Shown piece by piece: positions 6,002 to 23,839 of a stretch of 27,765 nucleotides of DNA (its first letter is position 1; each line of letters opens with the position of its first letter). Location of the stretch: the IMG/VR virus record IMGVR_UViG_3300008120_000298, positions 1 to 27,765 of that record; one strand, 5' to 3'. Below the pieces are notes generated by a model. The model saw only the letters and a program-made list of their open reading frames with translations, did no database searches and was not told the DNA's origin. The translations under genes were made by a program, and so were the position numbers. This DNA is from a virus.

Positions 6002-7000
6002 TTACGCTACCCAGGTTGCACCAACAATGGCATCGGCAGCGATACGCGATTGTACGCCCAACGCGAACCGCATCACGATACGGATGTTGTCCGATCCATC
6101 GTATTGGTAGGTCGGAATCCATTGGATGTCGGTTTGGTCGGTTCCTACGTTCGAGCCGTACACGAGGTTTTCCTTGTAGGTCAACACAATCGCATCGTCG
6201 AACATACCTGGGCAGACGTTGATGGGAACACCCATAAAGCCAATGCCGTCGAAGTTCTGCGCGGTTGCGAGGTTGTTGATGCCGAGGTTATTGGCCGTAA
6301 CTCCTGCGCCCAAACCTGCAAGTTGCTGGCAGTATAGAGCGTAGGTCTTTTTGTTCACGTAGAACGCCAAACCCGGCTTGGACAAGATACCCGGCTTATC
6401 GGTTGCGGCCTTCGTGTACACCACGTTGAACTGCGTGATGGCGTTTGCATTCGTGACAGAAGCGATGTCTACGGTCGTGGCTCCTGCCAAACCTGCTGCC
6501 GCCAAACCTGCGGAATCGAAAGTACCATCGTTCGACAGGAACCCTGCACCAAAGACGGTGCCACCCTGCCACAGGTTATTTTCGATGTTTTCAGCGGTCT
6601 TCGCTGCAACCTCGGCCAACGTAAAGTTGACAAACTCCGGGGTCATCACATTCGTGGTAGCCCGTGCAGTTGCTGCTCCGTGCCATCCCGGATAGACGGT
6701 CTTGCGGCAAATTTCCTCATTCACCATGAGGTCTTTCAGCGTCAAAACCTTCTCACCGATGGTCAACGATGCGTTGTCATCAAACGCACACGCTGCTGCT
6801 TGCAGAGTGTCCGTTACTGCAAGCGTAGGAAGTACGGCCTTGTAGTGGATGCCTTCCATCACGGTCACAAATCCTTTGGCGACGGTATCGTTTGATTTCG
6901 TTGCTGCTGCCAAAATGGGGTACTTCAGTTCCCCTGCGTAGGTCGTCGTTCCTGCGTTAATATCGAAATGCCGACGACGGGTGTTAATTCCAAAACTCAT
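6002..7000 (-). CDS. Major capsid protein
   Basis: 332 residues from ATG 7000-6998. I chose this start because it lies 1 base after the TGA of the scaffold gene and begins MSFGINTRRRHFDINAG, a capsid-like N-terminus; an in-frame upstream extension would overlap the scaffold gene and reads like shadow sequence. The protein has LKDLMVNEEICRKTVYPGW, a long helical segment (FTLAEVAAKTAENIENNLWQ) and a C-terminal beta-rich part with MGVPINVCPGMFDD and IVMRFALGVQSR, as in HK97-fold proteins. The position after a scaffold-like gene supports the call. Confidence 0.85.
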   Translation of the reverse strand: MSFGINTRRRHFDINAGTTTYAGELKYPILAAATKSNDTVAKGFVTVMEGIHYKAVLPTLAVTDTLQAAACAFDDNASLTIGEKVLTLKDLMVNEEICRKTVYPGWHGAATARATTNVMTPEFVNFTLAEVAAKTAENIENNLWQGGTVFGAGFLSNDGTFDSAGLAAAGLAGATTVDIASVTNANAITQFNVVYTKAATDKPGILSKPGLAFYVNKKTYALYCQQLAGLGAGVTANNLGINNLATAQNFDGIGFMGVPINVCPGMFDDAIVLTYKENLVYGSNVGTDQTDIQWIPTYQYDGSDNIRIVMRFALGVQSRIAADAIVGATWVA

Positions 7001-7001
7001 A

Positions 7002-7616
7002 TCACAACCAATTTTTAAGTGCTGCAAATACCCGGCTCTTTGCGTCTCCATCCTGCGGAATCGCAACCTGTGCGACACGACCCTGTGGGCGACGAGAAAG
7101 TTTTTGGGCGGCGGGTGCTGCGCCCATCTGTGCGAGTTGCTTACGCAATTCGACAATCGTAGCCCGCTGGCGACGGATCACCTGGGCGGACATATCGGTA
7201 CGGCCTTCCGAGCTGAAGCCACGCTCACGGGTGGGGCGTGCTGCCCGACGTTCGCGGCGTGCCATCAATTCCTCACGGCTGAAATTCCGCTCACGCGATG
7301 CGAGACCTTCCCGACGAAATGAACGCTCACGGGAAGCGTAGAATCCACCTTTCCGGCTCATACGTTGTGCGCGGCGCATCCGCGATGCTTCAGTTTTTTG
7401 GGGTTCTGACGCGCCCCCTGCGTTTACTAAATCTTGTGCCATTTGAAATACGGCTTCTGCTTGGTCGGCGGATAGCCCCATATCCACCAAAAGTTGAACA
7501 AATTGTGACTGGGAATCCGGGGCAGATTCCTCTGTGGTCTCGCTGGTTTCAGCGGTTGCTTCAGGAGCAGTTTCCTCGAAGTTGCGGCGATGCCGCTTAA
7601 AAAGTGTACGTGCCAT
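7002..7616 (-). CDS. Putative scaffolding protein
   Basis: 204 residues from ATG 7616-7614. The N-terminal 40 residues after MARTLFKRHRR are acidic and rich in Thr, Ser and Glu (ETAPEATAETSETTEESAPD). Then comes a short helical domain (QFVQLLVDMGLSADQAEAVF) and a long Arg-rich, repeat-like region (SRERSF, SRERNF, ARRERR, TRERGF), and finally a helix (IRRQRATIVELRKQLAQM). An acidic N-terminus, basic helical C-terminus and location immediately upstream of the capsid gene fit a phage scaffold. The Arg-rich repeats could contact capsid or DNA. No catalytic motif is visible. Confidence 0.7.
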   Translation of the reverse strand: MARTLFKRHRRNFEETAPEATAETSETTEESAPDSQSQFVQLLVDMGLSADQAEAVFQMAQDLVNAGGASEPQKTEASRMRRAQRMSRKGGFYASRERSFRREGLASRERNFSREELMARRERRAARPTRERGFSSEGRTDMSAQVIRRQRATIVELRKQLAQMGAAPAAQKLSRRPQGRVAQVAIPQDGDAKSRVFAALKNWL

Positions 7617-7621
7617 TCTTT

Positions 7622-7650
7622 TAAATATAAGTTCGTTCCTTGGCTTCAAA
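7622..7650 (-). promoter_or_regulatory. Possible promoter before the scaffold/capsid genes
   Basis: On the minus strand TTTG (7650-7647), a 17-base spacer and TATATTTA (7629-7622) resemble the Bacteroidetes -33/-7 pattern with one mismatch in the -7 box. It lies just upstream of ATG 7616. The spacer is on the short side. Confidence 0.35.
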
Positions 7651-7897
7651 AGCGAATCGTCATTTCGCTCGACCAAATATCATAGGCATTTGCCGTTGAA
7701 ATATCTCTCGCCATTGGCGCATATTCGTATGCCACATCAACTATTGCCTCCCAATCGCCTTGAGTAAACCGCTGGTCTCCAAAACTAATTGAATATACAC
7801 CAGGTGATACTTGCACTCCGTAACCTTTTGGCACTTCAATTCCGAGTTCCCGTTCAATCGCATCTACAACGTCTTGAACCTGATTGTCTGTACTCAT
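7646..7897 (-). CDS. Small acidic protein (83 residues)
   Basis: Unrecognised. The N-terminal helix carries DVVDAIERELGIEVPKGYG, the middle is more beta-like (VQVSPGVYSISFGDQRF) and the C-terminal helix is DWEAIVDVAYEYAPMARDIS, ending MTIRF. It is last in the run of small acidic genes between the protease-ArdA gene and the scaffold gene, separated from the previous gene by an AT-rich 38-base spacer. It differs from its neighbours in having a beta-like centre. No membrane segment or metal-binding motif is visible. Confidence 0.6.
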   Translation of the reverse strand: MSTDNQVQDVVDAIERELGIEVPKGYGVQVSPGVYSISFGDQRFTQGDWEAIVDVAYEYAPMARDISTANAYDIWSSEMTIRF

Positions 7898-7935
7898 ATT
7901 TCTATGTTTTATGTTCTTATTATGCGTTTCTAATT

Positions 7936-8217
7936 TTAGTATCCCCTACGTTCTACAACATCTACCGTTGTTAGAATTTCAGATAGCATATTGTCGATAA
8001 TACCTTTTTCCGATCCTCGTGCATCTTGAAATGCTGTCAATCGCCAGTAGCGGATTTCATGTACCCATTCATCATACGTCATTCCGGGATCTTGTGCGGC
8101 CCCCAATAAGGCATCAATCATTTCTTGCAAATTGGGCATATCATCAAGATAAAAACCTTCCCTTATCATCCCATCGAGGTATTCGTTGATTACCTCCTCA
8201 ATAATTGTGTATTTCAT
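7936..8217 (-). CDS. Small acidic helical protein (93 residues, C-terminal RRGY)
   Basis: Unrecognised. I count 19 Asp/Glu against 8 Lys/Arg. The sequence is almost all helix-forming (IIEEVINEYLDGMIREGFYL, NLQEMIDALLGAAQDPG, GIIDNMLSEILTTVDVVE) and ends RRGY. It belongs to a cluster of similarly sized acidic genes here, three of which end in Gly-Tyr. A role in inhibiting a host protein or mimicking DNA is a hypothesis based on charge and on the adjacent ArdA-like domain. Confidence 0.65.
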   Translation of the reverse strand: MKYTIIEEVINEYLDGMIREGFYLDDMPNLQEMIDALLGAAQDPGMTYDEWVHEIRYWRLTAFQDARGSEKGIIDNMLSEILTTVDVVERRGY

Positions 8218-8229
8218 TTCAGTAGCCTT

Positions 8230-8490
8230 TTAATATCCAAATCGCGCTGCGTGTGCATATTGAGCAATTTGATTCTCGATACCTCCTAATGTTTGCGGCA
8301 GCAAATTGTTGCTTGCATCGTATTCATCTAAAAGGTCGAACATCAATTCCGTATCACCTGCTTGCAAGGCATCGTATAAATCCATTACCAAATTTTCTGC
8401 ATCCAATCTTGAATGGCCAAGCCAAAAATCCGTAATGGCAAAAATTGCCCCTTCCAATCGTTGTTTTTCCTCTTTTGCTGAATTATACAT
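8230..8490 (-). CDS. Small acidic helical protein (86 residues, C-terminal RFGY)
   Basis: Unrecognised. About 15 Asp/Glu against 5 Lys/Arg. It contains DALQAGDTELMFDLLDEYDA, which lines up by eye with matching segments in the small proteins at 8492-8755, 11154-11393, 11397-11681 and 27257-27511: an Asp at a helix start followed by hydrophobic residues at 3-4 residue spacing. It ends RFGY. The gene sits one base downstream of the 87-residue gene and so is probably in the same transcript. Confidence 0.65.
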   Translation of the reverse strand: MYNSAKEEKQRLEGAIFAITDFWLGHSRLDAENLVMDLYDALQAGDTELMFDLLDEYDASNNLLPQTLGGIENQIAQYAHAARFGY

Positions 8491-8491
8491 T

Positions 8492-8755
8492 TCAGTATCC
8501 GTTATAGTATTTCACTTCCTCTAACACGCGCAAAAATAAGTCAATGTCATACTCCCTGATGAACCCGAATAGACCTTGGATTTGGGATTCTACCGCAAAC
8601 CAATCCTGCCGAGTGATGGCATCTTGTATGCTGGGCAACTGATTTTGGATGTAGTCATCGAAGTAGTAATCGATGGCAAACTCATCCAACATCATTTGCA
8701 GTTCCTCAAGTGGGCTGTTCGTCCACGTGCGGTAGATGCGATCCCATAAACTCAT
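8492..8755 (-). CDS. Small acidic helical protein (87 residues, C-terminal YYNGY)
   Basis: Unrecognised. Its ATG overlaps the stop of the protease-ArdA gene as ATGA, so the two are translationally coupled. About 16 Asp/Glu against 6 Lys/Arg. The middle carries AITRQDWFAVESQIQGLFGF, the shared helical motif of the cluster, and the protein ends YYNGY. Aromatic content is high (Trp, Tyr and Phe), unlike a simple unstructured acidic linker. Coupling to the ArdA-like gene makes joint function plausible. Confidence 0.65.
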   Translation of the reverse strand: MSLWDRIYRTWTNSPLEELQMMLDEFAIDYYFDDYIQNQLPSIQDAITRQDWFAVESQIQGLFGFIREYDIDLFLRVLEEVKYYNGY

Positions 8756-10398
8756 CGTGCGACGACAACTGCGTTTTCACCCGTGCCGTACGTGCTGTAT
8801 GAATCACGCAAATCCTGGGCAAACATATCCTCATCGAAGTAATTTTTGAGTGCTTCAGCACCCAACTCGCTCGGATTGCCGATGCCCTGCTGATCCATAT
8901 ACCACATAGCAACCTGCTCATTGCTCATGCGATTCACTTCATCGGAAATTTCAGGGTCGCCAATGTCCGCCAACATTTCAGTGATGTCGCCTCCGTGCTT
9001 CAGGTCATTTCCGAATGAAGCGTAATTGAAATACGCATCGTACTGCTCGTCGCTGATGTTGCCTTGGTCAATCAATTCCGCGATGTAATCGCGCATCTGA
9101 CCGTGATACACTACGTTATTCTCCCACCAATTTTTTGCGTCTTGCCAACTTTCACCCGCATCCATCAAAACCTCTTCGACGATTTCGTAATCCAACTTTT
9201 CCTCATCGGCGATTTCCATCACCACCTTGGCCCCCTCCCACTGATCCTCGCTCATGCCATCGAGCATACCCGAATCAACAGAACCTGCCGGGATGTACTC
9301 GTAATCGACCACCTCGCTTTCTTCCACAAGTTCGCCATACTGATTCGACAACTCGTCCCAGCGATCTTGAACGGCCTGTGCGTACTCGTCGTACGAACCA
9401 TACTTGAACGGGTAGAATAGTTGGTCAGGGGCATCCACGCCTAACGGCCGAATCCAAATAATGGCCTTGTCTGCAAGGGCAGCAAATTGTCGGCGGGACA
9501 TCTTCACTTTCTTCATCTGATTGTATCGTTTCTCGAAATACTTTTTCCACAAATCTACTTTCTCGGAGGCAGGTTTTGGTTCCGCTGGCTCGCTTTCAAT
9601 TACCTCCTGCACCTCACCGTCGTAGTCCGTAAGGATGCCATCAAACACCTCAAGCTCAACCCCGGCTTTTGTGGTGTACTTCCCGTTCGACATTGGAACA
9701 GGCATACCCTCGGCATCAAGCGTAAATACCGCTACTCCCGGCTCCAACTTTTCCGCTTCTGTGGCTACCACTTTGCCGTCTGCAAGGGTCGCCTCGGCGT
9801 AGAACTTACGTTGGCGCAGGGTCTTCATCAACCTGGCAAAAAGGTTTTCCTTTTGAGCTTTGAGGATTTTGTCAGCGAAGTATCCCTCAATGCTGAATCC
9901 CCGCAACTCGCCCTCTTTGACCTTCGACCACATATCCTCGTTGGCACAATGCACACGAACCATCCACGTCCCTTCAGGAACGGATAGACCGTAGTGTTTG
10001 GCTTTGTCGAGTTCCGGGTTCACCACGAGCCACGATTCCACCACGGATACCCCGTCGATGGGAACCTGATGTTCAAACGTGTGGCTGTTGGCGCGGTTCT
10101 CTTTCAGGAAAAGTTCGGCGCATTGGCGCACCGTCTCCTTGCTGAAAAAGACATCGTATTCCTCTTCGGATCCCTCATCTAACCGGGGGATATGTTTGTC
10201 AGGAATCAGGGCCGGGCCGATGAGCGTTTGTTTCTCTTCATCGATGGCTGCCAATTGCGTAAGTTGGCTCTTCCCCTGTTTGGAAAAGTAGATGAAATTA
10301 CGCTCGATGGCAGGGTACTTAACGAGCGAAATGGCCTCGACCCCGAATGCCTGTGCTTCAGGATCGATGAGCAGTTCTATGAGTTTGCGTTCTGCCAC
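8752..10398 (-). CDS. XkdF-like head maturation protease fused to an ArdA-like antirestriction domain
   Basis: 548 residues from GTG 10398-10396. Residues about 55-175 match the XkdF-type putative prohead protease: ALIPDKHIPRLDEGSEEEYD, SHTFEHQVPIDGVSVVESW, then GTWMVRVHC and LRGFSIEGYF; H106/H110 and S169 are candidate active-site residues. Residues about 200-262 form a small beta domain with SNGKYTTKAGVELEVFDG, often seen behind this protease. After a charged linker, residues about 310-545 look like ArdA, a DNA mimic that blocks type I restriction enzymes: IIWIRPLGVDAPDQLFYPF, then VVDYEYIP, and at the end VAMWYMDQQG with LKNYFDEDMFAQDLRDSY, closely resembling the ArdA C-terminus (NY.DY..F.RDL). 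The C-terminal half is strongly acidic. Such a fusion is unusual and may be co-packaged in the head. Confidence 0.75.
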   Translation of the reverse strand: MAERKLIELLIDPEAQAFGVEAISLVKYPAIERNFIYFSKQGKSQLTQLAAIDEEKQTLIGPALIPDKHIPRLDEGSEEEYDVFFSKETVRQCAELFLKENRANSHTFEHQVPIDGVSVVESWLVVNPELDKAKHYGLSVPEGTWMVRVHCANEDMWSKVKEGELRGFSIEGYFADKILKAQKENLFARLMKTLRQRKFYAEATLADGKVVATEAEKLEPGVAVFTLDAEGMPVPMSNGKYTTKAGVELEVFDGILTDYDGEVQEVIESEPAEPKPASEKVDLWKKYFEKRYNQMKKVKMSRRQFAALADKAIIWIRPLGVDAPDQLFYPFKYGSYDEYAQAVQDRWDELSNQYGELVEESEVVDYEYIPAGSVDSGMLDGMSEDQWEGAKVVMEIADEEKLDYEIVEEVLMDAGESWQDAKNWWENNVVYHGQMRDYIAELIDQGNISDEQYDAYFNYASFGNDLKHGGDITEMLADIGDPEISDEVNRMSNEQVAMWYMDQQGIGNPSELGAEALKNYFDEDMFAQDLRDSYSTYGTGENAVVVAR

Positions 10399-10400
10399 TT

Positions 10401-10706
10401 CTACAAATAAAGTGTTTCTAACGTGGCTGCTAATTCCTGCGATTCACTTTGGGCTACCTCAACTGCGATGTCTAATGCAGCGTTGATGTCCCATTGGATA
10501 GCCGTGCTGATTTTGCTGACCTGATCGTAGGTCGCATCAGATGAGCTTGTGCGCGGTTCACCAAAGATTTTTGCCAACTCTTTTACCTCGGAATGAGCAT
10601 TATTGAACGTCAGCAAATCGATGACAAAGGCATACAACTCATCAAAGCCAAACCCGCGTGTGGCGCGTTTAGCCATATCAAAGGGGTCGCTGGCGAAATG
10701 TTGCAT
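10401..10706 (-). CDS. Small helical protein (101 residues)
   Basis: Unrecognised. I prefer ATG 10706-10704; a TTG lies one codon upstream, directly after the previous stop. The sequence includes RGFGFDELYAFVIDLLTF, EVKELAKIFGEP and a C-terminal helical part WDINAALDIAVEVAQSESQE ending TLYL. It lies 2 bases upstream of the protease-ArdA GTG start. It belongs to the small-gene cluster by size, helical content and location, but lacks the Gly-Tyr end. Confidence 0.6.
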   Translation of the reverse strand: MQHFASDPFDMAKRATRGFGFDELYAFVIDLLTFNNAHSEVKELAKIFGEPRTSSSDATYDQVSKISTAIQWDINAALDIAVEVAQSESQELAATLETLYL

Positions 10707-10709
10707 CAA

Positions 10710-10898
10710 TCAGAAATTGCCCTCGGCCAAATAACGTGATTCGCGCAACTCCTCCGTGAGTTCCTCCAAGTTGGTCAATGCCACCTCGTACTCTTCCCAC
10801 AGACGTTGATCCATCGAATCGGGGGATTCTTGCAGGTAATCCCAAATACCTTGTGTGCGAATCTGCTTCAGCAACGCTGCAATTTCACGTGGTTCCAT
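10710..10898 (-). CDS. Small acidic helical protein (62 residues)
   Basis: Unrecognised. The sequence begins MEPREIAALLKQIRTQGIWD and continues with an acidic, Glu-rich helix (WEEYEVALTNLEELTEELRE), ending LAEGNF, a Gly-x-aromatic end recalling the Gly-Tyr ends of nearby genes. The stop is 3 bases before the ATG of the next gene. The heptad-like Leu/Glu pattern suggests coiled-coil dimerisation. Confidence 0.6.
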   Translation of the reverse strand: MEPREIAALLKQIRTQGIWDYLQESPDSMDQRLWEEYEVALTNLEELTEELRESRYLAEGNF

Positions 10899-10911
10899 AT
10901 CTATTCAATTA

Positions 10912-11136
10912 TTAGTCCATCATAATGTTGACGGCCTCATCAACGCGCTCAACCGCCTCAAGCAATAAATCTAATGCTTCGTTCCGATAATAAGTTTGCG
11001 GATCAAATTGCGTCTTACGAAAATCATCAAGATGAATCATTGCATTCTGAAGCAATCCTAATGCTTGAACGGCTTTCTCCGTTGCAACTTCCAAATCATT
11101 CTTGTAGAAATTTCTACGTTGTGAGTTGTATTTCAT
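10912..11136 (-). CDS. Small helical protein (74 residues)
   Basis: Unrecognised. A basic N-terminus (MKYNSQRRNFYKND) is followed by two helices, EVATEKAVQALGLLQNAMIH and EALDLLLEAVERVDEAVNIM, ending in MMD. The C-terminal half is acidic and amphipathic. It lies between two other small genes of the cluster with short AT-rich spacers. No known motif. Confidence 0.6.
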   Translation of the reverse strand: MKYNSQRRNFYKNDLEVATEKAVQALGLLQNAMIHLDDFRKTQFDPQTYYRNEALDLLLEAVERVDEAVNIMMD

Positions 11137-11153
11137 CTTTGTGTTTTCCTGTC

Positions 11154-11393
11154 TTAAAATCCGACATCATCGATTGACCCAATCGCCAGGCCGTAGTAAT
11201 CAATTACTTGCCTTACTTGTTTCGCCAAATCGCGTTTATCTAACGCGGAGAAAATTTCAAAAATGTACCCGATTGGGCCCATTTCAGCATTTGTCAACCC
11301 TAATGGCTCCAACTCGATGAGCAAATTTTCAAACTCATAATCCAAAGTTGGATCCCTAAATGGGGTAGTCACAATAACCTCGTATAGTGGCAT
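11154..11393 (-). CDS. Small acidic protein (79 residues, C-terminal DDVGF)
   Basis: Unrecognised. The N-terminal part may be beta (LYEVIVTTPF); the centre is FENLLIELEPLGLTNAEMGP, followed by the cluster motif FSALDKRDLAKQVRQVIDYY, which shares its Asp-helix-Tyr-Tyr-Gly layout with the 94-residue neighbour at 11397-11681. It ends DDVGF, a Gly-aromatic terminus. The ATG follows the neighbour's stop by only 3 bases, so co-expression is likely. Confidence 0.65.
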   Translation of the reverse strand: MPLYEVIVTTPFRDPTLDYEFENLLIELEPLGLTNAEMGPIGYIFEIFSALDKRDLAKQVRQVIDYYGLAIGSIDDVGF

Positions 11394-11396
11394 GGC

Positions 11397-11681
11397 TTAT
11401 CCGTTGATTGCGTCCAAAATAGGATCAACTAAATGGTACGCCCAAGATTCTCGTTCTCGTTCATACATAGTTGGGCCATAGTATTCCCACGCACTTACAA
11501 CTGCATCGGCAATTTCCGAGAAACGATCATAACGAATCGCATCTTCAATCGCCTCAATCGCACGCAAACACTCCGGTGATGGATTCATGCGCATCAACGC
11601 ATCGATGCCACGCTCAACAATGGCCTCCAAACTAAACGCGGAATCCACGTAAACATCGAGGAAATTCCTTTTCTGATACAT
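11397..11681 (-). CDS. Small acidic protein (94 residues), first of the cluster
   Basis: Unrecognised. 18 Asp/Glu against 9 Lys/Arg. It contains AIRYDRFSEIADAVVSAWEY followed by YG, matching by eye the motif in the 79-residue neighbour. It opens the run of small genes behind a promoter-like site (11701-11733) and an A/G-rich leader of about 13 bases. A promoter here would let the small acidic genes and the protease-ArdA gene be expressed apart from the tail genes. Confidence 0.65.
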   Translation of the reverse strand: MYQKRNFLDVYVDSAFSLEAIVERGIDALMRMNPSPECLRAIEAIEDAIRYDRFSEIADAVVSAWEYYGPTMYERERESWAYHLVDPILDAING

Positions 11682-11700: not shown

Positions 11701-11733
11701 CAAATGTATGTTACAACCTGGCCCTTCGCGCAA
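11701..11733 (-). promoter_or_regulatory. Bacteroidetes-type promoter before the small acidic gene cluster
   Basis: On the minus strand TACATTTG (11708-11701) matches TAnnTTTG exactly, with TTG (11733-11731) 22 bases upstream. The expected start of transcription is about 13 bases before ATG 11681. The site overlaps the end of the tape measure gene. Confidence 0.5.
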
Positions 11734-13783
11734 TGCCTGCGGTCATATTTAGTTGCGCTTGCATTTGGCTCTCAACCACGTACGCTTGAACTGGGCCGAT
11801 GTTCAACTGCGGGTTCGCTGCCGGGGCTACGTTGGGGATGAGTGCCTGCTGAATTGGGCGGTTTGCCGTCGGAGGGTCATCGCTCCCTTGGGGTGCGCCG
11901 ATGATTCGTTTGATGCTTCCAAACGTGGCGAGAATAGTTCCCAACATAGACGCAATGTATCCCGCCAACACGAATGGTGCACCCGGCCCGGTTGATGCCG
12001 CTGCCTGCGCTGCTCCCCTTACCGCACTCGCCATCGCTTGCGCTTGGCTCAACAAAACCTCTGCGATTGCCAACTTGCGCTGCCGCTTGCTGCCTTCCTC
12101 ACTCAAATCTGCAAGTTGCCCAAAGATGCCGCTGACCTCGCTGGCAAAACCTTGGATGGCTTGGAATCGTTTGTCCGCGTTTTCTTCTGATTCTCTGACG
12201 GTATCGGCTTCAATTTCCGCAATCCTTTTGGCCTTCCATTCCTCAAGTTTTACGATGTCCAAACCATATTCTGTGGCGACGGCTAACTGCTTTTGATATT
12301 CGGCTTCTACATCGGCCAAACGCTTTTCTTTGTCTGTCAAGAATAAAGCGTTGAACGCATCCGTGGCTTCTTTTTCGGCAGCCAAATCGTCTTGGATATA
12401 CTTGTCCCTTAACCTCGCTAACTCAATCAGGTATTGTTCCTCAATGAGTTTCTTGGCTTCATTGGCTGCCTCTTGGCTCAAACCTAACGTGTCAATGCGA
12501 GCTTTCTGCTCGGCCATTTCAGCCATAATACGCGCCTCTGCTTGCTGACGTTCCGTTTGGAACATTTCGTTTTCACGTTCCATATAGTCCGCCCAAAATG
12601 CGTTGCGCAAATCGGTCTCACGCTGTGCCTCGGATGCATCTTCCTCTGCCCATTTAGCACGCATATCCTGCAACTCCAACCGATACTTTTCCCGGATTTT
12701 GTTGATAGTTGCCTCGCTCGAATTGATGGTTTTGGCTTTCTCAATTTCGTCCGTTAGGGCATACTCTAATTCCTTTTTGGCACGCTCACGGTCATCGGCA
12801 ATTTTGGCGAGTGTGATTTCACGATCCAATTTGCGATTGAGTTCCGCCCTGGCTTTGGCATCTTGGGCGGCCTTGCGTGCTGCTTCATCGGCTTTGCGCT
12901 GGGCTTCCTGTTGTGCCTTTAACGCATCGGCTCGCTCTTGTGCCTCACGCGCCAACTCACCCTCTTGTTGTAGGACACCTCGATTCAAAACTTCCAAACG
13001 CTCCAAAATCATGGTCTCATCCTCCAACGCCTCATTCAGTTTGCCCTGCTCGATGGCACGTGAAAAAATCGCTAACCGCGAATACTCATCGTATGCCTTT
13101 TGTGCATCGCGTTTTTTGGTCTGCGCATCTTCCAACGCTTGTTGCAGGGAACGCATTTCTGCCATCTGACCCTCCAACACCATACGCTCTTTCAGGGCTT
13201 GGGTCAACACCCCCTCCGCTGTGGCTTGTTCCAAAGTCATGCCCTGCAACTCGGGCATCAACTTCTGCAATTCCTTCAGGGCTTGGTTACGTTCATCGAT
13301 GGAAGCGTTGGTGTCCAACAAGGATTGCGCTAAAAACTGGGTGCTATTGGTGAATTGGTTTTCTGCTGACGATGCCTCTTTTGCGGCGGTCTTCATGGCC
13401 TTCATCCCCTCCGTGGTTCCCGTGAGGAAATCAGATACTTTCTCCCAATTGTCAATCAGCCAGCGGAACCCTTCAATGATTAAAAAGATAGGTACGGCTT
13501 TGATTGCAGCCCCGAGAATCTTGAACGATCCGCCCATCCGCCCTACCTGGCGTGAGGTCGATTCAAACCGCCGCTGAAGCATTTGCAGGTTGCGAGGCAG
13601 CAAATCCTTAAACAGGTTCAGACCGTCTTTCCACCCTCCCGTGGCTTTACCCCCGGCTTCAGCACCTTTCCTGCCTGTGTTTTCGAGTTTGGCCTGTGTG
13701 TCTTCTGCTGCCTTTCCGACATCTTCCAACGCGGCAATGGCTTCCGAGGAATCGCCCGTGATTTTAACCTCTGTGTCCTGCAT
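11711..13783 (-). CDS. Tape measure protein
   Basis: 690 residues. The N-terminus (VKITGDSSEAIAALEDVGKA) is typical of tape measures. Residues about 85-120 include a hydrophobic segment (LGAAIKAVPIFLIIEGFRWL). A long Ala/Glu/Lys/Arg-rich coiled coil follows (about 190-560, for example AREAQERADALKAQQEAQRK). The C-terminal part has AIAEVLLSQAQAMASAVRGA and a second hydrophobic segment (FVLAGYIASMLGTILATFG). Tape measures set tail length at roughly 1.5 angstrom per residue, so about 100 nm here. The gene is preceded by a 58-residue gene with which it overlaps by 20 bases. Unusually it lies after, not before, the large tail-tip genes. Confidence 0.85.
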   Translation of the reverse strand: MQDTEVKITGDSSEAIAALEDVGKAAEDTQAKLENTGRKGAEAGGKATGGWKDGLNLFKDLLPRNLQMLQRRFESTSRQVGRMGGSFKILGAAIKAVPIFLIIEGFRWLIDNWEKVSDFLTGTTEGMKAMKTAAKEASSAENQFTNSTQFLAQSLLDTNASIDERNQALKELQKLMPELQGMTLEQATAEGVLTQALKERMVLEGQMAEMRSLQQALEDAQTKKRDAQKAYDEYSRLAIFSRAIEQGKLNEALEDETMILERLEVLNRGVLQQEGELAREAQERADALKAQQEAQRKADEAARKAAQDAKARAELNRKLDREITLAKIADDRERAKKELEYALTDEIEKAKTINSSEATINKIREKYRLELQDMRAKWAEEDASEAQRETDLRNAFWADYMERENEMFQTERQQAEARIMAEMAEQKARIDTLGLSQEAANEAKKLIEEQYLIELARLRDKYIQDDLAAEKEATDAFNALFLTDKEKRLADVEAEYQKQLAVATEYGLDIVKLEEWKAKRIAEIEADTVRESEENADKRFQAIQGFASEVSGIFGQLADLSEEGSKRQRKLAIAEVLLSQAQAMASAVRGAAQAAASTGPGAPFVLAGYIASMLGTILATFGSIKRIIGAPQGSDDPPTANRPIQQALIPNVAPAANPQLNIGPVQAYVVESQMQAQLNMTAGIARRARL

Positions 13784-22370: not shown

Positions 22371-22763
22371 TTACGAAATTGCTTTGATAAGTTCCTGTAA
22401 TTCCTTGTTGTAATGCTCCACCCATTGTTGGGCATTGTCCTCGCTCATCTTCAGGGCGCGATGGCTTTTAATCATTAACTGCTCCGCTGTGCCTTCCCCG
22501 TAGATGGCATCGAGACGGCAGCCAAAGATGTACTGCTGTCCGTTTCCGTAGAGGTTGCAAGCCGGGCATTGGGGTTTGACGTTCATATCGTCCCAACGTG
22601 TCGCGTACTTCGCTCGTGTCACGAAATGCCCCGCGTGCATCTTCGTCCAATGGTTCTCTTTTCCACAAGTGAAGCACGCAACTATCCCGGCTTGGTTGGC
22701 ATCTTTGATACGGATCCACTTGCTGAATACGGCATCTAACTTTTTGCGTGTGGGTGCTTTCAT
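22371..22763 (-). CDS. ninG: NinG/Rap-family recombination nuclease
   Basis: 130 residues. The family (lambda NinG/Rap) cuts branched DNA during phage recombination. Visible features are LDAVFSKWIRIKDANQAG, CFTCGK (C30, C33), MHAGHFVTRAKYATRW (H43, H46), then PQCPACN (C66, C69) with LYGNGQQYIFG. These Cys and His positions form the likely zinc site. The length is close to a minimal family member. The start overlaps the methyltransferase stop as ATGA. It belongs to the replication/recombination block. Confidence 0.85.
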   Translation of the reverse strand: MKAPTRKKLDAVFSKWIRIKDANQAGIVACFTCGKENHWTKMHAGHFVTRAKYATRWDDMNVKPQCPACNLYGNGQQYIFGCRLDAIYGEGTAEQLMIKSHRALKMSEDNAQQWVEHYNKELQELIKAIS

Positions 22764-23839
22764 GGGTGTGCGAGTTCAATCGCACGAAATAACTGAAAAG
22801 CAAGTTGAGGAACAATAGCATTTCCGTACGCTTTTATGGATTCTGTGCGCCACTTTGAAAAGGTAACTCCGTCCAGTTCGCGGGGAAGCCCATCATCTCC
22901 GCCACAAACCGGGGGTTGAGTTGGGAAGTGCTCCCAGTTCCCAACTTGATGTAATTGGGAAGCTGGGAATCGTGCTTCACCTTGTTTCCATTTTCCCCCC
23001 TCAAATGCTCCAATGAATTGGCCCCCTTGTAATCCCGTGCCGCTGGTGTCGGTAGCATCCCCAGGGATGCCTTTCCGCTCAACATCGATGCTGTCCCGTC
23101 TGCTCTGCGTTGTCCCTTCCAATCCCCCGCAATTGGTGTCGGAAGCATAGCGTTGGCAAACTCCTGCGGGTTCATCGTCCTGCCCTCCGCAAAGCGTTTC
23201 GAGCGTGCCTTGTGTCGTGCCGTTGGTGTCCCCAACATTCCGTACACCACTTGGCTCGTCAGACCGTTGTACTGCGTCCCGTTCTTGTAGCCGTTCCGCT
23301 CCGCTTTGGCTCGCATCTTTTTGGGATCCTCGCATCGTTCGGTAGTGGTCGGGGTGATAAGCAATCCACCATATCCTGTCTCGTCTGTGGGGTGCGCCGA
23401 CACCCGCAGCAGGAAGGATGCCCGTCCAAACCTCGTACCCCAAATACTCCAAGTCAGCGCACACCTCATCGAAGACCACCCCTCCATTCCAATTAAGCAG
23501 GCCGCGTACGTTTTCGCCCACAACGTAGGCCGGGGCAACCTCGAGTATGATGCGACACATTTCGGGCCATAGGTGGCGTTCGTCGTCCTTTCCCAACCGC
23601 TTTCCGGCCGTTGAGTAAGGTTGGCAGGGGAACCCTCCTGTGAGGATGTCCACGTGTCCGCGAAAAGGTCTACCGTCGAATGTTTTGACATCGTTGAATC
23701 CTTGTGAGCTTGGGAAATGGTGTGCCAGGACACGCTGGCAAAAGGGGTCTCTTTCCACGTGGAAGACATTTGTCCACCCCATCCACTCGGCAGCGAGGTC
23801 GAACCCGCCAATCCCCGAGAAAAGAGACCCGTGCCTCAT
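22760..23839 (-). CDS. DNA C5-cytosine methyltransferase
   Basis: 359 residues. It transfers a methyl group from S-adenosylmethionine to cytosine C5, probably to protect phage DNA from host restriction. Motifs: I SLFSGIGGFDLAAE (5-18); IV GGFPCQPYS with catalytic Cys at about 72; VI GENVRGLL (E109); VIII HRRDRIWWIA (151-160); X AYGNAIVPQLAFQL near the end. Between VIII and X is the target-recognition region, about 165 residues, with repeated DTN..GLEG-like units (GDTNGTTQGT, SDTNCGGLEG, TDTSGTGLQG) followed by FPTQPPVCGGDDGLP. The start overlaps the upstream 57-residue gene as ATGA. A second long frame lies inside this gene (22834-23811). Confidence 0.93.
   Translation of the reverse strand: MRHGSLFSGIGGFDLAAEWMGWTNVFHVERDPFCQRVLAHHFPSSQGFNDVKTFDGRPFRGHVDILTGGFPCQPYSTAGKRLGKDDERHLWPEMCRIILEVAPAYVVGENVRGLLNWNGGVVFDEVCADLEYLGYEVWTGILPAAGVGAPHRRDRIWWIAYHPDHYRTMRGSQKDASQSGAERLQERDAVQRSDEPSGVRNVGDTNGTTQGTLETLCGGQDDEPAGVCQRYASDTNCGGLEGTTQSRRDSIDVERKGIPGDATDTSGTGLQGGQFIGAFEGGKWKQGEARFPASQLHQVGNWEHFPTQPPVCGGDDGLPRELDGVTFSKWRTESIKAYGNAIVPQLAFQLFRAIELAHP
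22834..23811 (-). other. Long alternative-frame ORF nested in the methyltransferase gene
   Basis: 325 codons without a stop, in another minus-strand frame of the methyltransferase gene. It contains four spaced units of LPTP-like form (LLITPTT, MLGTPTARH, MLPTPIAGDWKG, MLPTPAARDYKG) and ends in SQLNPRFVAEMMGFPANWTE followed by LPF. I recall this terminal motif from phage proteins annotated as cytosine-methylase-like. If translated it would be an overlapping gene; otherwise it is a by-product of strong codon bias and repeats. Not proven to be expressed. Confidence 0.4.

Follow-up and report, generated by a model that had tools for sequence, protein, structure and literature searches.

A head maturation protease fused to an ArdA-like domain among small acidic genes of a viral head module

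The fused gene and its two parts

The analysed stretch of viral DNA, hereafter the window, is 27,765 bases long. At 8752-10398 on the minus strand it carries a single uninterrupted ORF of 548 amino acids with a GTG start. Features of this ORF and its surroundings are listed in Table 1; related viral loci are denoted by L numbers.

Table 1. Subdivisions of the fused gene and neighbouring features in the window
Feature	Coordinates	Strand	Basis or remark
Probable major capsid protein	6002..7000	-	phrog_1623 virion structural protein, E 1.9e-7; start at 7000 from homologues
Arg-rich protein, 204 aa, net +13, scaffold position	7002..7616	-	Start at 7616 from relatives; charge
Small acidic ORF, 83 aa	7646..7897	-	Absent from L002
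Small acidic ORF, 93 aa	7936..8217	-	ORF list, charge
Small acidic ORF, 86 aa	8230..8490	-	Absent from L002
87-aa acidic helical protein	8492..8755	-	Most conserved neighbour of protease/ArdA genes; homologues in most array loci
Fused gene: extra C-terminal unit, residues 477-548	8755..8970	-	Part repeats end of ArdA core
Fused gene: ArdA core, residues 311-476, net about -30	8971..9468	-	phrog_2059, Pfam ArdA in relatives, fold, charge
Fused gene: linker and basic helix, residues 266-300	9499..9603	-	Natural protease C-terminus in ArdA-less sisters
Fused gene: small module, residues 191-265	9604..9828	-	43-45% identity to second gene of L005/L006
Fused gene: XkdF-type (Peptidase_S78_2) head maturation protease domain, residues 1-190	9829..10398	-	PF14550; invariant His110, Ser169
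Small acidic ORF, 102 aa as listed	10401..10709	-	TTG start uncertain
Small acidic ORF, 62 aa	10710..10898	-	ORF list, charge
Small ORF, 74 aa, net -4	10912..11136	-	ORF list, charge
Small acidic ORF, 79 aa	11154..11393	-	ORF list, charge
Small acidic ORF, 94 aa	11397..11681	-	ORF list, charge
Probable tape-measure protein, upstream array border	11711..13783	-	Length, composition, position

Residues 51-173 match the Pfam family PF14550 (Peptidase_S78_2/XkdF) with 60.4 bits versus a cut-off of 24 (E 2.3e-16). Within this domain, His110 and Ser169, which we take from the fold in general to be catalytic, are invariant across 14 aligned proteases. The counterpart of residues 191-265 opens a separate scaffold-like protein in L005 and L006, two relatives that lack the gene array described below. 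The proteases of L102-L105, which are 83-84% identical to the window protein over residues 1-299, stop at the junction, terminating in ...LWKRYFEKRYQQLSQSK at the point that matches window residues 266-300, and no ArdA gene follows them; a whole ArdA module has thus joined a whole protease. Judged from its sequence, the stretch from residue 1 to residue 300 is a complete XkdF-type prohead protease, a putative cleaver of head proteins. It shares with other members of PF14550 the domain, the conserved His and Ser and a position before the capsid gene. Unlike them, the window protein has, at its C-terminus, a folded domain that belongs to an unrelated family.

Residues 311-548 have a net charge of -41 and contain 23% Asp and Glu. 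The PHROG family phrog_2059, annotated as 'anti-restriction protein', matches residues 337-475 (E 1.4e-7). The Pfam ArdA profile (PF07275) gives no match to the window protein, and the C-terminal part has no direct match in Pfam or NCBIfam. The ArdA profile does match most sequences in an alignment of this domain and its relatives, 10 of 12 (E up to 1, best 1.3e-14). The fused homologue of L048, which is 45% identical, passes the curated Pfam cut-offs for both domains (protease, 62.2 bits; ArdA, 35.8 bits, against a cut-off of 27). In tblastn searches against named phages, the C-terminal part of the window protein returned nothing significant, and the C-terminal domain of a relative returned weak ArdA matches.

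Structure prediction points the same way. AlphaFold2, run on an alignment of 17 sequences, modelled the C-terminal 254 residues with a mean pLDDT of 88.4 and a pTM of 0.73, and Foldseek ranked the ArdA structure 2w82 first among solved structures (E 0.039, probability 0.91). A second structure aligner gave 2w82 a Z score of 6.9 across 154 of 163 residues, the next entry reaching 2.8. When predicted viral proteins were compared, the closest (E 2.7e-11) was a protein without a name; several more carry an ArdA or antirestriction annotation, each a weak match by itself. ArdA was absent from the results of a profile search of solved structures by sequence, which gave one chance match only. A Z score of 6.9 is modest, values below 8 being weak alone; because the sequence evidence adds to it, membership of the ArdA family is settled for practical purposes. 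The window domain, whose own sequence falls below the Pfam threshold, is assigned to ArdA through its relatives, the PHROG match and the predicted fold. A likeness produced by chance acidity was considered and is ruled out by the profile matches of the relatives and by the fold.

The window domain has in common with the ArdA of Tn916 (2w82; PF07275) the sequence profile of its relatives, the fold and a strong negative charge. It differs from Tn916 ArdA in its length of about 240 residues, which includes an extra unit partly repeating the end of the ArdA core, and in being fused to a head protease and encoded among head genes. The motif YF[ND]xxxF[GA]xDL occurs twice, at the end of the core and in the extra unit (residues 477-548), and hhalign aligned the two units with a score of 35 (E 6e-7), the best of 100 column shuffles scoring 16.8.

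The original prediction had read the ORF as an XkdF-type prohead protease fused to an acidic, ArdA-like C-terminal part of 235 residues, and had named structure prediction of that part as a check. Each element is borne out: the protease by its PF14550 score, the C-terminal part by phrog_2059, the Pfam ArdA matches of relatives, the charge of -41 and the ArdA fold obtained, with 2w82 on top, and the fusion itself by an uninterrupted frame that recurs in L001-L003, L048/L050 and L107.

Recurrence and origin of the fusion

In L001, L002 and L003 the fused frame is the same, and the proteins are 96-99% identical; L003 is a partial contig in which the frame was followed to the contig end. The fused protein of L048/L050 has 544 residues and is 45% identical over its length. 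L107 represents a third lineage, with a fused protein of 552 residues and a best segment 46% identical. An assembly or frameshift artefact is ruled out because the fused frame recurs on these independent contigs and in distant lineages. The fusion and the ArdA fold are established, and the fusion is conserved in three lineages.

Other arrangements are found elsewhere. In L013, L016 and L017, the protease and ArdA genes are separate and overlap by four bases; in other relatives, at least one small ORF lies between them. In the ArdA tree, the window and L107 group together (100/99), while the placement of L048 is unsupported, so that either one or two fusion events are possible. In L077 and L099 the protease reads through into small array ORFs, which indicates that fusions at the protease end arise repeatedly. 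These read-through proteases lie at L077:10344-11546 and L099:12532-13764; that of L099 has 410 residues, and the spacer is translated in it as LNNEDM.

Read-through of this kind is what would be expected if the ArdA fusion were a neutral accident, in which a stop codon was lost between adjacent genes and a harmless C-terminal extension of the protease was tolerated. We consider this very unlikely. The ArdA fusion is still open between lineages that are 45-46% identical, a pattern that, as far as sequences can tell, points to selection for the joined protein; the ArdA tree is compatible with one origin or with two.

A further explanation is that translation also begins internally, at Met295 or Met300, and makes free ArdA beside the fusion, which would then matter little. 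The window (MKKVKMSR) and L107 (MKKIKMAR) do retain two methionines just ahead of the ArdA domain. In L048, however, no ATG occurs from residue 286 to the ArdA domain, and the fusion is retained; we therefore find internal initiation improbable as an account of the fused gene.

The two halves of the gene have changed at different rates. When the window is compared with L002, the codons of residues 1-300 differ by 10 synonymous and 0 nonsynonymous changes. In residues 301-548 there are 17 nonsynonymous changes, of which 11 fall in residues 405-432; synonymous change is elevated there too (dS 0.17 versus 0.05). This cluster of amino-acid changes stands out in a protein that is otherwise nearly identical in L002. 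The pattern fits, as expected, that of a conserved enzyme joined to what may be a fast-changing antagonist of host defence. The elevated synonymous change makes recombination an alternative to diversifying selection.

Small acidic genes around the fusion

Eight or nine small ORFs, mostly with a net charge of -9 to -11, flank the fused gene on both sides and form an array bounded by the probable tape-measure gene and the gene of the Arg-rich protein. A PHROG search gave no match for the product of the probable tape-measure gene. The 87-aa neighbour of the fused gene is modelled as five helices (pLDDT 88), and a fold search with this model found no solved structure with E below 0.8.

Comparable arrays are seen in L004, L009-L021, L029 and L102-L112, as in the window (7646-8755 and 10401-11681), and their content varies by phage. 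In relatives, as many as about twelve ORFs, each of roughly 50-110 residues, occupy the equivalent interval. Across 19 loci and the window, 155 array ORFs fall into 71 families. Their mean net charge per 80 residues is -11.2, versus +5.0 for the other small ORFs of the same loci, a contrast that is approximate because the other small ORFs include some that are no true genes. The last residue of array proteins is aromatic in 35% of cases against 13.5% expected from composition, a weak trend. In many relatives, ArdA-like genes sit between the protease gene and the scaffold or capsid genes. A protein of 259-278 residues (MAFKYYSAL...LPxPMxLHN), possibly a head decoration protein, was also observed within the array ORFs (L013:8958-9770 region, L016:8958-9770, L020:4323-5159, L029:5729-6535 and L004:70-849).

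Many relatives have an identical 11-base spacer between neighbouring array ORFs, which reads from stop to start TAA[AC]CAACAGAGATATG. Up to eight copies occur per phage, one-base variants included; L009 has six exact copies, and 0 were found in 200 shuffles. The window itself lacks the spacer. When 2.9 million viral contigs were scanned, 70 stretches were returned, those from the same contig being counted separately. Genes of this group (tape-measure, protease, ArdA, scaffold-position or capsid) are present in 54 of them, and each of the remaining 16 has one copy. Array proteins of two phages can be much more similar than their proteases (92% versus 54%). In five pairs inspected, the DNA match comprises the ORF and about 12-17 bases upstream and ends at most about 30 bases downstream, with little other match in the 400-base flanks. 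As the matches end at or near the spacer, array ORFs appear to move as cassettes, and the boundaries agree with those predicted for spacer-bounded exchange. The spacer probably serves translation initiation as well. In L004 and L010, a recurrent TTATATATATA stretch directly precedes the starts of several genes, namely scaffold-position and following ones, and may be a late promoter or an initiation signal.

Homologues of the capsid protein are present in all syntenic loci. Every array locus that extends as far as the capsid gene encodes, immediately ahead of it, a protein in which 10-18% of residues are Arg. This Arg-rich protein is absent from the array-less relatives examined, which have an acidic scaffold-like protein at that position or pass from the protease directly to the capsid gene. 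The C-terminal ends of the scaffold-position proteins of the two groups match weakly (profile comparison, probability 33%). The co-occurrence of protein and array suggests a possible role of the Arg-rich protein in retaining acidic cargo inside the prohead. It is a correlation and not a test, since the array phages may form a single clade.

The same comparison bears on another reading, in which the ArdA-like domain on the protease has been turned to head assembly, where it acts as an acidic scaffold or a placeholder and no longer inhibits restriction. The array-less relatives do have an acidic scaffold-like region in the protease or the next protein, which array phages lack, and the window domain has diverged below the Pfam threshold. 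Against such a role, L102-L105 and many array phages build heads without any ArdA, and stand-alone ArdA relatives retain Pfam-level similarity. We think it highly improbable that the domain has been converted in this way.

Elsewhere in the window, a DNA methyltransferase gene lies at 22760-23839 on the minus strand (phrog_363, E 2.9e-70) and, from its sequence match, is a possible second antirestriction function in the same genome. The family phrog_1530 and record annotations offered an apparent precedent for a protease fused to a DNA methyltransferase. The protein of Rhizobium phage RHph_TM16 has only 210 residues, and that of Lactococcus phage 28201 has 349 and is encoded between capsid genes; neither was counted.

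Possible delivery of ArdA with the genome

We propose that the fused gene merges two neighbours of an antirestriction island of the head module into one protein. Residues 311-548 would be a DNA mimic of the ArdA type, with type I restriction enzymes as its expected binding partners. Since entry into the prohead is obligatory for the protease, the ArdA domain would be taken inside through the fusion. There the domain (about 27 kDa) could be released by self-cleavage in the linker or could stay attached; it would remain with the DNA and would probably be injected with it, and could then act ahead of any phage gene expression. The protease is probably a low-copy protein, in which case few copies of ArdA would be delivered. 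The original prediction had suggested a route of this kind. Indirect support for it comes from the ArdA-like genes located between protease and scaffold or capsid genes in many relatives, and from a prohead protease, gp245 (below), that cuts off its own C-terminal part. For the full sequence of packaging, possible cleavage, injection and inhibition of restriction, read from the genes and the predicted fold, we see the chances as about even.

Alternatively, ArdA may act in the infected cell, where it would be made late with the head genes and would guard progeny DNA or counter restriction in subsequent infections, with or without attachment to the protease. Relatives mostly carry their ArdA-like gene separately, which makes the fusion unnecessary for function. 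Nor was a capsid-targeting signal found among the array proteins: within their first 30 residues, no tetrapeptide is shared by more than two of the 71 families, in a search by sequence that would miss a signal formed by tertiary structure. From its position, we infer that the array is expressed late. ArdA-type inhibitors serve to protect incoming DNA, and late synthesis would leave incoming DNA unprotected; moreover, three lineages have kept the two parts in one frame. Action confined to the infected cell thus seems to us rather unlikely.

Delivery with the genome may extend to the array as a whole. The exchangeable acidic genes could be cassettes, each bounded by the stop-spacer-start sequence and swapped as a unit. 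Their products, loaded into the prohead by the Arg-rich protein or through fusion to the protease, would be injected and form a variable set of DNA mimics against host defences, the fused ArdA being one welded member. We put this broader reading forward tentatively and hold it to be doubtful.

The fused gene and the array lie in a variable locus with head genes, a feature expected of packaged antirestriction proteins such as T4 Ip and P1 Dar. The T4 proteins Ip1-Ip3 are packaged antirestriction proteins, directed into the head by a common N-terminal leader (PMC12373910). Like them, the array encodes small, diverse proteins, in our case candidate antirestriction proteins, at a variable locus, and we propose the same logic of packaging and injection. 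The array differs in that no shared leader was found, its ORFs are set apart by a DNA spacer, and ArdA forms one polypeptide with the protease. In P1, the Dar antirestriction proteins are virion components with a link to head assembly (PMC9024508). The likeness lies in antirestriction tied to head genes, virion carriage being proposed here from the genes. Unlike the window fusion, the Dar proteins are encoded by separate genes, none described as fused to a protease, and no similarity to Dar was found.

The polyvalent proteins of phages and plasmids combine processing domains with anti-host domains in one multi-domain chain, which in some cases includes ArdA. In the parts of the survey considered here, ArdA occurs mainly in polyvalent proteins of Firmicutes together with ArdC-N, and no fusion of ArdA to a prohead protease was found (PMC5512222). 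The window protein resembles them in combining two domains, known from sequence, in one polypeptide, and differs in that the partner is the phage's own head protease. The prohead protease gp245 of Salmonella phage SPN3US also bears an additional C-terminal part, a propeptide of 64 residues that it removes itself, and propeptides cut in proheads usually exit the head (PMC10052503). Self-cleavage is known for gp245 and is only proposed for the window protein. Moreover, gp245 sheds a propeptide and not an antirestriction domain, and it belongs to a different protease subfamily, not compared here. The original prediction knew of no described example of an ArdA-protease fusion, and we found none in the open-access literature; an earlier description may exist beyond open access.

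If this proposal is correct, counter-defence would be tied to the one enzyme that is obligatory inside every immature head, a simple route for packaging antirestriction cargo without a leader peptide. The array of acidic cassettes, with its DNA boundary recognisable in many relatives, could then be searched for uncharacterised candidate inhibitors, both of restriction and of other DNA-targeting defences.
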